Shown: one piece after another, positions 34,002-41,852 of the stretch
How the letters are laid out: each line of letters opens with the position of its first letter
Position numbering within the stretch: position 1 is the stretch's first letter
Assembly: GCF_000375585.1 (NCBI RefSeq)
Contig: NZ_AQWP01000004.1
Coordinates: 1-64,000, forward strand
Reading direction: 5' to 3'
DNA from: Sinorhizobium meliloti 4H41
GTDB lineage: Bacteria > Pseudomonadota > Alphaproteobacteria > Rhizobiales > Rhizobiaceae
DNA: 64,000 nt
The notes under the pieces: generated by a model
What the model was told of the DNA's origin: nothing
What the model saw: the letters and a program-made list of their open reading frames with translations, nothing else
Database searches by the model: none
Translations under genes and position numbers: made by a program

Positions 34002-35639
34002 TCAGCGTGAACCCCGGTCAAATGTCCCCGGGCTGACACCGCGCTGCCGCAGGATGCTCCTGGCGATCTTCTCGGTCGGGGTGCGCGGAAGCGGCGCGTC
34101 CGTGACCTCGAGGTAACGAGGGACCATATGGCGCGGCGCCAGCGCGCGGAAATGGTCGAGCAGTTCCGCCGGCGTCAGCGTCGAGCCCGGCCGGCGCGAA
34201 GCGACCACCATGATGTCCTCCTCGGTGAACTCGGACGCGACGCCGAATGCGGCGCTCTCGACGACATCGGGATGCGCTTCGGCCAGCGTTTCCACTTCAT
34301 AGGCAGAGATATTCTCGCCCCGGCGCCGGATGGCCTCGTTCAGCCGGTGCTTGAAGTAGAGCCAGCCATCCTCGTCCATCACCCCCGCATCGCCGGAATG
34401 GTACCAGAGGTTTCTTAGAGTCTGCACCGTCTTGGTGTCTGCCCGGTAGTAGCCGGAAAACATGCTCCAGCTCTTTTTCGGGCGCGAGACGATCTCGCCG
34501 ACCGTGCCCGGCGGCAGCGGCCTGTCCATTTCGTCGACGACGGCCACTTCCCAGTCGGGGTGCGGCTTTCCGCAAGAGCCCGGCCGCGTGGCATCCACCG
34601 TGTCGAGGGTCACGAAGCTGGTTTCCGTCTGGCCGTAACCAGTGACGAGGCGCATGGCGAAGCGCTGCTCGAAGGCCTCCTTTTCCGGCACCATGGGAAT
34701 GCACTGGCAAATCCGCACCGGATTATCCTTGTCGCTTTCGCAGGGCGCCGCCCGCATCAGTATGACGGCCATGGCTCCGAGGAGATTGGTCGCGCTCGCA
34801 CCGCTTTCACAAACCTGGTCCCAGAAACGCGAGGCGCTGAACCCTTCGACCAGCGTCGCCCGGGTGCCGTAGATCAAAGGCAAGTAGACGCCGAACATCT
34901 GGGCATCGGTATGAAACAGCGGCAGTGCCGAAAAATAGCTGTCGTCGGTGCTGTATCCGAGATTGGCGGCCATGGCCGCCGCCCATGAATAGCAATGATG
35001 ATGCGACATCAGGGCGCCCTTGGCGGGGCCGGTCGTACCGGAGGTATAGAGGATCGCCATCGGGTCGGAATAATGGAGCCCTGCAAGGTCAACGGCCGGC
35101 AGGGAGGCCAGGCATTCCTCGAAGCGGAGGATGCGGTCGATCCGCAGGCCGGCCGCACGCGCTTCGGCGGGATCGACGCCAACCAGGACGAGGGTACGCA
35201 GGTCCGGCAGCCTCTGCTCCAACCTTGCGAGCTCGATCACGCCACGCGCGTCGGTGACCAGCACCCCCGCCCCGCAATTGTTCAGATTGTGCCAGAGCAG
35301 TTCGCCCTTCAGACCGGGATTGTTCGGCACTTCGATGGCTCCGAGGTTCGAAACCGCAAACCAGGTCGCCACGAGTTCGAAGCAATTGGGAAGCAGCATC
35401 GCAACCCGGTCGGAGCTGCCGATGCCCAGCATGCGAAGACCGCTCGCCAGTCGCCAGGAAAGATCGAACATCTCCTCGAAATTCGCGCGGCGCCCGCAAA
35501 TATCGAGAAAGGGCGCCGATCCCAAACGCTCGGCCTGACGGAGAAGGATCTTCGGCAGGACGCGGTCTTCGATCTCGTCGTCGTGCATGCCCGGAACGGG
35601 CGAGCGGGAAACGGTGACTGTTGTTTGCGACACGGTCAA
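34002..35639 (-). CDS. Acyl-CoA ligase (CaiC-like, ANL superfamily)
   Basis: A 545-residue AMP-forming ligase. The P-loop-like motif YTSGTTGPAKGAL is near residue 200, the adenylate motif TGYGQTETS near 340, the hinge YHSGDAGVMDEDGWLYFKHR near 415 and the C-terminal Lys region RTPTEKIARSIL near 525. It converts a carboxylate to its CoA ester with ATP. The nominal start is TTG 35639 (TTGA overlap with the crotonase stop); ATG 35588 is an alternative and neither has a strong Shine-Dalgarno. Beside the B12 mutase genes, its likely job is to load a short branched (hydroxy)acid onto CoA, as the ligase HCL does in 2-hydroxyisobutyrate degradation. Confidence 0.87.
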   Translation of the reverse strand: MTVSQTTVTVSRSPVPGMHDDEIEDRVLPKILLRQAERLGSAPFLDICGRRANFEEMFDLSWRLASGLRMLGIGSSDRVAMLLPNCFELVATWFAVSNLGAIEVPNNPGLKGELLWHNLNNCGAGVLVTDARGVIELARLEQRLPDLRTLVLVGVDPAEARAAGLRIDRILRFEECLASLPAVDLAGLHYSDPMAILYTSGTTGPAKGALMSHHHCYSWAAAMAANLGYSTDDSYFSALPLFHTDAQMFGVYLPLIYGTRATLVEGFSASRFWDQVCESGASATNLLGAMAVILMRAAPCESDKDNPVRICQCIPMVPEKEAFEQRFAMRLVTGYGQTETSFVTLDTVDATRPGSCGKPHPDWEVAVVDEMDRPLPPGTVGEIVSRPKKSWSMFSGYYRADTKTVQTLRNLWYHSGDAGVMDEDGWLYFKHRLNEAIRRRGENISAYEVETLAEAHPDVVESAAFGVASEFTEEDIMVVASRRPGSTLTPAELLDHFRALAPRHMVPRYLEVTDAPLPRTPTEKIARSILRQRGVSPGTFDRGSR

Positions 35640-36385
35640 AACTCTTTTGCTCTTGCCTGCGCCTGCGGAGACAGGAAACCACGAACCGTGGCTGCGGTCT
35701 CTCGTGCCATGGCGTCCTGAAGGGTCGAGTGAAGGCCGGCATTGATGGCGCGCTTGGCGTCCGCGACAGCGTCTGCGGGACGCTCCGCTATCCTCAGAGC
35801 CAGTCCCCGCGCCTCCTCCAGCAGGCGATCGTCCGGGACGACCTTCCAGGCGATGCCGACGTCCAGCGCCTTCCTCGCGTCGTGCCGCTCACCGAGCATG
35901 AGAAGCTCTTTCGTCACTTGTGGCCCGACCTGCTTCGTCAGCAATGCGGTTACGCCTCCCGTCACGAACAAGCCGTAGGTCACCTCGGGAAAGAACCAGC
36001 GGGCACTTTCGGAAAACAGCCGGAAATCGCAGTTGATGGCCCATTCCAGCGCGCCTCCGACGCACCAGCCGTGCACGGCCGCAATCACGATCTTGCGCGA
36101 CTGCATGATCTGGAGCGTGATGTTCTGAATGGCCTCGACCCAGGCTTGCGTATCCGCCTCGCAAGCGGTCTGCGCATCGAGATCCTTGAGGTCGTCGCCG
36201 GAACAGAACGCCCTGCCCTCGCCATGGAGAATCACGGCGCGTATGCCTTCGTCCGCTTCCGCGTCGGCGAGCGCCCGGGAGAGCCCATCGACGAGCTGCC
36301 GGTTCATCGCATTCAGCCGCTCCGGCCGATTCAGCCTCACCCAGGCGACCGCTCCCTCGTTCTTGGAGATGACAGTGTTGTTCAT
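35636..36385 (-). CDS. Enoyl-CoA hydratase/isomerase (crotonase) family
   Basis: A 249-residue crotonase. The first oxyanion-hole segment is GEGRAFCSGDDL, the second HGWCVGGALEWAINCDFR. Both hydratase Glu positions appear kept: the Glu of FFPEVTYG and the Glu of TKELLMLGER. Start 36385 (MNNTVISK) is preceded by GGGAGGAG-like bases and follows the mutase stop by 11 bases. It may hydrate or dehydrate the 3-hydroxyacyl-CoA made by the mutase, or process a side product. Confidence 0.88.
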   Translation of the reverse strand: MNNTVISKNEGAVAWVRLNRPERLNAMNRQLVDGLSRALADAEADEGIRAVILHGEGRAFCSGDDLKDLDAQTACEADTQAWVEAIQNITLQIMQSRKIVIAAVHGWCVGGALEWAINCDFRLFSESARWFFPEVTYGLFVTGGVTALLTKQVGPQVTKELLMLGERHDARKALDVGIAWKVVPDDRLLEEARGLALRIAERPADAVADAKRAINAGLHSTLQDAMARETAATVRGFLSPQAQARAKEF

Positions 36386-36396
36386 CGTCTCCCTCC

Positions 36397-40938: not shown

Positions 40939-40957
40939 CAAGTTCTGTGTAAACTTG
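40939..40957. promoter_or_regulatory. LysR operator between dgdA and its regulator
   Basis: CAAGTT (40939-40944), N7, AACTTG (40952-40957), a perfect inverted repeat in the 91-base divergent region. Its core AGTT-N7-AACT is also at 13044-13058. Confidence 0.65.
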
Positions 40958-40991
40958 ATAGTGTTGGGATTCAGATATAAGGAAAACTGAT

Positions 40992-41852
40992 ATGCACGGA
41001 CCGCTCGACCTTCGCCTGCTGATCACCTTCGTGCATGCTGCCCATTCCGGGTCGCTGAGCGCGACGGCGGTGCAGGTCGGGCGTACGCAATCCGCGGTCA
41101 CGATGCAGATGCAGCGGCTCGAGGAGATGCTCGGCCAGAGCCTGCTGCATCGCAGCGGCAGCGGTGTTCGGCTCACCGGCAGCGGCGAACGCTTCCTCGC
41201 TCATGCCGAACGCATCCTGAAAATGCACGATGAGGCGGTGTCGGCCTTTTCCGAGAAGGGTTTGCACGGCTCCATGGTTTTCGGCAGTCCGGAGGACTAT
41301 CTGATATCCTTCTTTCCGGCGCTCCTGAGGAGCTTCGGCACAAAATACCCCGACGTCGAAATCAAGGTCGTATCCGCTCCGACGGCCGAATTGCGGGCGC
41401 TTCTGCAATCGCACAAGGTGGATCTCGCGCTCGTTTCGACACCCAACCTGAACGACGTCGAAACCATCATCAGAACGGAGCCGCTCGCCTGGGTCGGCAG
41501 CAAGCCGGCACTGGAGCTGCATGATTTCCGCGACACGGTGCCCCTGGCCCTGCCGGCGTCGAACGCCATGGACCATCGCGCAGCCCGGGAGGCGATGGCG
41601 CGCGCCGGATTGCGCTACAAGATAGCCTATGCGAGCAACAGTCTTGCTGGTCTGATCGGTCTTGCACGCTCCGGACTTGCCGTCAGCGTCATGACGCAGG
41701 AAGCCGTTCCGCCGGATCTCCACATCCTGAATGCGCCGCTTCCGGAACTGCCGCATCTGGGCATCTTGCTGGCGTTCGCTGACGCCGACCACCAATCTCC
41801 CGCGGTCGCGGCCTTCGCCGACCATGTTCGGGCGGTCCTGCCAACGCTTTGA
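40992..41852 (+). CDS. dgdR: LysR-family regulator of the dgdA-mutase operon
   Basis: A 286-residue LTTR. HTH about residues 6-65 ([37 protein letters not shown]), effector domain from about residue 93 ([15 protein letters not shown]). In Burkholderia a LysR protein, DgdR, is encoded divergently to dgdA and represses it until 2-methylalanine is present. The same position here, with a perfect inverted repeat in between, supports the assignment by context. Direct orthology to DgdR cannot be shown without alignment. Confidence 0.8.

Follow-up and report, generated by a model that had tools for sequence, protein, structure and literature searches.

2,2-Dialkylglycine decarboxylase (DGD) converts 2-aminoisobutyrate (Aib) and pyruvate to acetone, CO2 and alanine, a reaction established for its family. 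It represents one of two described routes of Aib breakdown, the other being an oxygenase route (PMC7782822), and fungal peptaibols contain both Aib and isovaline as building blocks (PMC10169451). Acyl-CoA mutases of the 2-hydroxyisobutyryl-CoA mutase (HCM) family are sought as scaffolds for synthetic carbon pathways (PMC11599936), and the known clusters for 2-hydroxyisobutyrate (2-HIBA) usually carry the gene of a GntR-family regulator (PMC7176365). Here we describe a stretch of 64,000 nucleotides from Sinorhizobium meliloti 4H41 (contig NZ_AQWP01000004.1, positions 1 to 64,000; hereafter the window) in which the DGD gene, dgdA, shares an operon with the genes of a B12-dependent mutase of the HCM family. 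The coupling of DGD and mutase is real, conserved and, as far as our searches go, undescribed. Among open-licence papers we found no description of it, which does not prove its absence from print; the preliminary description of this DNA, made from the sequence alone, likewise knew of none.

A conserved dgdA-mutase operon

The dgdA-mutase operon is real. Its six genes run from position 40900 down to 34002, all on the minus strand, and a LysR-type regulator gene runs away from them on the plus strand (Table 1). From dgdA to the ligase gene, successive genes are spaced by a 12 bp gap, a 4 bp overlap, a 13 bp overlap, an 11 bp gap and a 2 bp gap. The coordinates thus confirm the tightly spaced single-strand operon with a divergent LysR gene that had been proposed for this DNA, including every gene named in it. 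The closest named relatives seen are plasmid pK101b of Sinorhizobium sp. K101 and sister strains, whose mutases are 99.3–99.5% identical to that of the window.

One genome per species was scanned with patterns of the window mutase, and the best 80 of 82 relatives gave 79 distinct loci: 31 clade loci, with a mutase at least 77% identical to that of the window, and 48 remaining loci, several of them short. Gene counts over both groups were made without a coverage limit; when coverage of at least 40% was required, the counts for the genes quoted here were unchanged, except that the binding protein went from 28 to 27 and the lyase in the other 48 loci from 3 to 2. The B12-binding subunit and the MeaB-type chaperone were found in all 31 clade loci, and DGD, the divergent LysR, the crotonase and the ligase each in 30, the exception being locus L033 (Peristeroidobacter). 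Gene order, whose conservation the preliminary description had suggested searching for, is identical in 29 of the 31 loci, and locus L030 carries two inverted copies, each in order. The clade loci span Sinorhizobium, Shinella, Mesorhizobium, Aminobacter, Phyllobacterium, Labrys and Hoeflea, and also come from Brucella/Ochrobactrum, Pseudogemmobacter, Roseovarius and others.

The gene set separates these loci from the other mutase loci. A DGD match of at least 58% occurs in 0 of the other 48 loci, against 30 of the 31 clade loci, whereas 2-HIBA-CoA ligase (HCL), a PaaK-type or PaaK-like ligase, adjoins the mutase in 40 of the 48; a crotonase is present in two of them. We conclude that the split is near-exclusive: HCL accompanies canonical mutases, and DGD, another ligase and a crotonase accompany the mutase clade of the window.

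The major facilitator superfamily (MFS) gene at 32527–33873, described earlier as following the operon, is indeed there, but a gap of at least 128 bp separates it from the operon and a single one of the 31 clade loci (L014) was found to have it, which places it outside the conserved unit. Its candidacy as an operon member was rejected on the latter count. Among 394 plasmid records with a match, 20 carry a mutase at least 80% identical, those listed coming from Sinorhizobium and Shinella; the operon can therefore be plasmid-borne. In L030 (positions 1170–15626) the entire operon occurs twice as an inverted pair on a single contig of a metagenome-assembled genome, which is either real or an assembly artefact.

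Table 1. Coordinates of the operon, its regulatory region and adjoining genes in the window
Feature	Position	Strand	Basis
dgdA, 2,2-dialkylglycine decarboxylase (DGD)	39563–40900	-	70% identity over 434 amino acids to B. cepacia DGD (1d7r); PF00202
B12-binding small mutase subunit, HcmB-like	39083–39550	-	PF02310; best solved match 4r3u chain C, E 3e-40
MeaB-type GTPase chaperone of the mutase	38085–39086	-	TIGR00750, 306 bits (cut-off 240.75); extent per annotation in Sinorhizobium sp. K101
B12-dependent acyl-CoA mutase large subunit, HCM family, Val90/Asp117 clade	36397–38097	-	58% identity over 542 amino acids to HcmA of 4r3u; residues; tree
Crotonase-family enoyl-CoA hydratase (or ammonia-lyase)	35636–36385	-	PF00378; alignments show both Glu
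AMP-forming acyl-CoA ligase, carnitine-ligase-like, motif FHTDAQ, not HCL	34002–35633	-	PF00501/PF13193; PRK06155, 467 bits, below cut-off 722
LysR-type regulator, DgdR-like, divergent from the operon	40992–41852	+	PF00126 and PF03466
LysR-dgdA intergenic region	40901–40991		conserved operator-like box and ACTATCAA[t]TTTAC element
Periplasmic binding protein for small neutral amino acids, HAAT type	41957–43075	-	68% over 348 amino acids to 3ip5
Acetyl-CoA C-acyltransferase (thiolase)	43313–44503	-	TIGR01930, 415 bits (cut-off 240.55)
Candidate 3-hydroxyacyl-CoA dehydrogenase of the short-chain dehydrogenase/reductase (SDR) family	44528–45295	-	PF00106
AraC-type regulator, divergent from SDR and thiolase genes	45386–46459	+	NCBIfam QhpR/GliR matches below cut-off; annotated AraC family in pK101b

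The regulatory region and the DGD lineage

The product of the window dgdA has the class III aminotransferase fold and the active-site residues of DGD (Gln52, Trp138, Ser215, Lys272 and Arg406 in Burkholderia cepacia numbering); all eight active-site motif strings compared are identical to those of 1d7r. For the gene context of dgdA at large, 28 loci were drawn from 398 genomes sampled across the phylum and 297 sampled across the family. A divergent LysR gene is present in 27 of these, the mutase operon in seven, and 21 have no adjoining mutase genes; at dgdA loci without the mutase, the genes after dgdA vary among most loci.

An operator-like box, ATCA-N7-TGAT, lies at 40974–40993, its last two bases inside the LysR gene. 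With at most one mismatch it was found at 30 of 31 dgdA loci linked to mutase genes and at 14 of 20 unlinked ones, against shuffled means of 1.7 and 0.9 (single-base shuffles, with the relatedness of the loci disregarded). This form of the box was picked after inspecting the intergenic sequences, and one unlinked locus, L164, which has no LysR match, was left out, leaving 20 of the 21. The ACTATCAA[t]TTTAC element occupies 40949–40962 in the same gap, and the ACTATCAATTTTAC element, with at most two mismatches, occurs at 31 of 31 linked and 8 of 20 unlinked loci. Loci L161–L163, which group with B. cepacia in the DGD tree, have neither the box nor the ACTATCAATTTTAC element. The longer form ATATCA-N7-TGATAT was found within two mismatches in 0 of 31 linked loci, a first intergenic palindrome scan (length 15, arms matching in six or more of seven positions) gave nothing common to the loci inspected, and a promoter and terminator scan gave nothing exceeding shuffles.

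Because the operator-like box is common to dgdA loci without the mutase, the mutase genes are probably controlled by a dialkylglycine switch, to all appearance the one that serves plain dgdA. Isovaline is reported to induce DGD activity in B. cepacia (PMC10169451), and by analogy the switch in the window may answer to Aib or isovaline. We consider a regulon under dialkylglycine control very probable, and the earlier proposal of a single regulon for compounds whose alpha carbon is fully substituted plausible.

The DGD tree has 56 rows, of which 17 unlinked ones, B. cepacia among them, group as a distinct, supported clade. Five other unlinked rows (L142, L143, L154, L157 and L158) fall in one unresolved region together with the linked rows, so that a single origin of the DGD-mutase link is not demonstrated on the DGD side. 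The linked dgdA genes are mostly of one lineage, and the group label required five changes on the tree, part of which is accounted for by L040 and L091, labelled unlinked though both carry the operon.

The mutase, the ligase and their candidate substrate

By its residues and its place in the tree, the window mutase is a member of the HCM family, in a clade of its own. It has separate large and B12-binding subunits and a MeaB-type chaperone. Marks of HCM are an Asp117 in the acyl pocket that binds the substituent, and the lack of both the Tyr/Arg pair of methylmalonyl-CoA mutase and Phe90; the window mutase clade has the former and lacks both of the latter. The roles of positions 90 and 117 are reportedly treated in the 2015 HCM structure paper. 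Asp117 is found in 43 of 43 clade rows and in 50 of 50 rows of the next group (52–70% identity), and Gln208 in 43 of 43 clade rows. At position 90, where HCM has Ile, the window mutase has Val, as do all 43 clade rows, against Ile in 47 of the 50 next-group rows. The three exceptions all come from HCL-bearing loci, so Ile90 is no strict mark of a canonical cluster. Both sets of rows contain loci that overlap within one genome, so that the rows are not independent (31 different clade sequences stand in the tree), and matches covering less than 80% of the query were dropped, which leaves L040 and L091 outside the counts. Further fixed differences of the clade include Ser240, Leu241, Asp248, Val249 and Val329. 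The HCM-type mutase of the preliminary description lies in a clade of its own, with Val90.

A mutase tree of 91 rows, built by a quick method, unites the DGD-linked rows with L033, which is nested among them, in one clade of 31 rows with support 100 and a long stem. The sister of this clade (support 99) consists of L007, L041 and L080, all with Val90, a crotonase and HCL, the HCL match of L007 being cut by the locus end. An ordinary methylmalonyl- or isobutyryl-CoA mutase was rejected on residues 90, 117 and 208 and on the tree. The other mutase of the window genome, of methylmalonyl type and located on contig 3, has Tyr, Ala and Arg at these positions.

Four related loci are worth recording in their own right. 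L080 (380–14773) and L041 hold a Rhodobacter-type cluster in which HCL and a Val90 mutase are accompanied by a crotonase, an SDR and a P450-like gene; its substrate may be a tert-alkyl compound. L033 of Peristeroidobacter soli (8470–16201) has a clade mutase without DGD, crotonase or window-type ligase, together with a 3-hydroxybutyryl-CoA dehydrogenase, a convergent 2-hydroxyacyl-CoA lyase (658 bits, cut-off 600) and another ligase. In L054 of Mycobacterium sp. NAZ190054 (1480–5231), a second mutase (47% to that of the window, Val90/Asp117) stands beside a canonical HCL-mutase cluster, accompanied by a B12 subunit and a PRK06155-like ligase with the motif FHANAQ, and with a 2-hydroxyacyl-CoA lyase on its other side.

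The contrast at position 90 would suit a mutase whose substrate is a larger acyl-CoA or one of another kind (for instance a C5 one, isovaline-derived or of pivalyl or isovaleryl type), for which Val90 would make room, while DGD would act on another member of the mixture. The exchange I90V in HcmA is said to raise activity on branched C5 thioesters (Kurteva-Yaneva 2015). Asp117, which binds the substituent in HCM, is strictly kept, however, and this makes a substituent-free acyl group less likely; we regard the explanation as improbable.

The lyase of L033 bears on another explanation, in which the two enzymes would act in series: acetone from DGD would be joined to formyl-CoA by a 2-hydroxyacyl-CoA lyase, and the resulting 2-hydroxyisobutyryl-CoA isomerised by the mutase. 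A lyase above its family cut-off does adjoin the clade mutase there, but L033 is the only one of 31 loci with a lyase and is the one without DGD (best match in its genome, 36%), and the ligase of the operon would be left without a function. In the window genome the best lyase match reaches 220.7 bits, below the cut-off of 600, and for the window we rejected this very improbable scheme on that ground.

The ligase sets the operon apart from canonical 2-HIBA clusters, in which an HCL gene accompanies the mutase genes. HCL was found beside the clade mutase in 0 of 31 loci, and an HCL-level match in 0 of 31 clade genomes (that of the window and 30 others, including that of L033), with three of three control genomes positive; L026 was outside this search and the acetone carboxylase search below. 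Five of the 31 genomes gave HCL matches of 32–35%, with E near 1e-61. The regulator beside the genes is a divergent LysR in 30 of the 31 loci, other GntR genes near these loci not having been searched for; the GntR gene of the window (30504–31283) adjoins a dihydrodipicolinate synthase (DHDPS)-family gene and recurs in one of the other loci clustered.

The nearest NCBIfam model of the window ligase is PRK06155. No PaaK or HCL occurs among the best 60 of its 160 solved matches, and it is 31% identical to E. coli CaiC, with FHxDxQ in common. Judged by these comparisons, the ligase is carnitine-ligase-like and not HCL, although it may take 2-hydroxyisobutyrate. The claim that it is the entry point of 2-hydroxyisobutyrate is weakened and, in the form in which it was made, unsupported. 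The motif FHTDAQ is found in 30 of 30 distinct clade ligases passing the filter, and E. coli CaiC has FHIDCQ. The mycobacterial homologue that adjoins a Val90/Asp117 mutase is 39% identical to the window ligase; among its best 120 relatives, one had no motif match, and 117 of the 119 motif-bearing proteins have Asn instead of Asp. The Asp position presumably lines the acyl pocket, going by 4-coumarate ligase structures, and the substrate of CaiC carries a cationic amine. A gained negative charge at this motif would fit a substrate with an ammonium group.

The main rival explanation keeps the hydroxy acids. One regulon would serve two kinds of substrate, DGD taking the amino acids, and ligase and mutase turning the matching 2-hydroxy acids (2-hydroxyisobutyrate or 2-hydroxy-2-methylbutyrate) into 3-hydroxyacyl-CoA. 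Membership of the mutase in the HCM family, with Asp117 and Gln208, speaks for this; L033 places a clade mutase by a 3-hydroxybutyryl-CoA dehydrogenase and a 2-hydroxyacyl-CoA lyase, and the sister clade combines Val90 and a crotonase with HCL. We nevertheless consider it rather unlikely, given the lack of HCL-level matches in all 31 clade genomes, the acidic motif of the ligase, the operator-like box in common with plain dgdA loci, and a LysR in place of the GntR gene usual for HCL-mutase clusters (PMC7176365).

Our preferred reading, tentative and not quite an even matter, is a catabolic operon for alpha,alpha-dialkylglycines (Aib, isovaline) in which the amino acid itself would be activated and isomerised, with DGD as a parallel branch. 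The DgdR-type regulator, ordinarily controlling dgdA alone, would switch on the whole operon. The ligase would couple the quaternary acid, most likely the amino acid itself (Aib or isovaline), to CoA as a thioester, and the Val90 mutase would shift the thioester group, taking 2-aminoisobutyryl-CoA to 3-aminobutyryl-CoA or the C5 analogue. The crotonase, whose two Glu we take to be the catalytic pair of its family, would remove ammonia and add water to give crotonyl-CoA and then 3-hydroxybutyryl-CoA, and oxidation by the SDR and thiolysis by the thiolase would yield two acetyl-CoA. DGD would give alanine and acetone, while the CoA branch would save carbon. We infer the regulator's signal and all reactions of the CoA branch, the amino substrate above all, from the sequences. 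For this reading speak the conserved unit (30 of 31 loci), the common operator-like box, the lack of HCL, the FHTDAQ motif, the Val90/Asp117 combination and the amino-acid-binding protein. An aminoacyl-CoA reaction of the mutase is, on these grounds, possible rather than likely. With slightly more reserve we suggest its particular form, a 2-aminoisobutyryl-CoA mutase turning alpha-amino acyl-CoA (Aib-CoA, isovalyl-CoA) into beta-amino acyl-CoA, on an oxygen-independent, acetone-free route to acetyl-CoA. No paper on aminoisobutyryl-CoA was found among the open-licence literature.

The fate of acetone bears on the use of two branches. The window genome gave no match to the gamma subunit of acetone carboxylase, in a search that was positive in 14 of the 31 clade genomes, three of them weakly (a first search of the window genome alone had no positive control, was uninformative and was repeated over the 31 genomes). 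Since no gamma subunit was seen there, acetone from DGD may be a dead end in the window genome. The operon could also run the other way: a beta-amino acid such as 3-aminobutyrate would be activated, its thioester would be isomerised to 2-aminoisobutyryl-CoA and hydrolysed, and DGD would complete the breakdown. This would put all the enzymes in one line ending at DGD, the first operon gene, but the line would end in acetone, which the window genome apparently does not carboxylate, and 3-aminobutyryl-CoA would be usable directly; we hold this direction to be very improbable.

Several points weigh against the activation and isomerisation of the amino acid itself. The role given to the ligase Asp derives from alignment. 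The crotonase accompanies Val90 mutases in three HCL-bearing clusters (L007, L041 and L080) and is therefore no mark of an amino substrate; to our knowledge no crotonase deaminates 3-aminoacyl-CoA, and the known 3-aminobutyryl-CoA ammonia-lyases have another fold. In L033, which has a clade mutase and no DGD, the dehydrogenase just downstream and the adjoining lyase would fit a hydroxyacyl-CoA. In L054, a window-family ligase with the Asn motif adjoins a Val90/Asp117 mutase near a lyase, and the wider ligase family may serve hydroxy acids elsewhere. SDR and thiolase are absent from 20 of the 31 loci within the stretch covered. Finally, the dead-end argument is not general, because of the clade genomes that do have the gamma subunit.

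Neighbouring genes and comparison with described systems

The binding protein gene next to the LysR gene is present in 27 of 31 clade loci, with only a short piece in L014. Its solved relative 3ip5 was deposited as an 'Amino acid' binding protein and is, we assume, Atu2422 of Agrobacterium. Between the ligase and the binding protein, L037 has two permeases of branched-chain-amino-acid type and two ATPases. From these resemblances the binding protein is a probable uptake partner of the operon. The nearby SDR and thiolase had been expected to finish the route: both genes are present in the window and each in 11 of the 31 clade loci, but they adjoin the AraC-type regulator on the other strand, which was itself found in 16 of 31. 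The thiolase is, by family, the probable last step.

Further along the window, 46441–47345 holds a RES-domain protein and a small gene annotated in pK101b as Xre/MbcA/ParS toxin-binding antitoxin, a probable toxin-antitoxin pair. Between 50621 and 57949 lie betaine-type ABC transporter genes and genes for a DddP-like protein, a GbdR-like regulator and an MttB-like methyltransferase, a possible quaternary-amine system whose named matches, the ProV model excepted, are below family cut-offs. In four Rokubacteria loci (L043–L046), a distant class III aminotransferase (31–32% to DGD) starts about 4–8 kb ahead of a canonical mutase.

The conservation of an operon of DGD and a B12 mutase among bacteria of nodules and soil points to a possible third route for Aib that would conserve carbon. 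If the proposal is true, the acyl-CoA mutase family would gain a new reaction, that of 2-aminoisobutyryl-CoA mutase, and Aib degradation a third way. A clade of mutases and ligases with altered residues is now named for assay.

HcmAB of Aquincola tertiaricarbonis (4r3u), encoded in an hcl-hcmAB-meaH cluster, resembles the window system in its two subunits and MeaB-type chaperone, in Asp117 and Gln208, and in 58% identity of the large subunit. The window differs in Val90 instead of Ile90, the lack of HCL, another ligase, an added crotonase, a LysR instead of a GntR regulator, and dgdA at the head. E. coli CaiC and CaiD (carnitine-CoA ligase and crotonobetainyl-CoA hydratase) show the same pairing of ligase and crotonase and the FHxDxQ motif, but are only 31% and 27% identical and have other gene neighbours. 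The aib cluster of Rhodococcus wratislaviensis likewise has a LysR-type regulator and degrades Aib without acetone, as the proposed CoA branch would, but by a di-iron monooxygenase that leads to alpha-methyl-D-serine, the accessible part of the source naming no CoA thioester or B12 (PMC7782822). B. cepacia DGD (1d7r) resembles the window enzyme in 70% identity, the same motif strings and, as at nearly all sampled dgdA loci, a divergent LysR. Its gene presumably belongs to a dgdRA unit. Compared with plain dgdA, as in the 21 of 28 loci without adjoining mutase genes, the window dgdA heads a six-gene operon.

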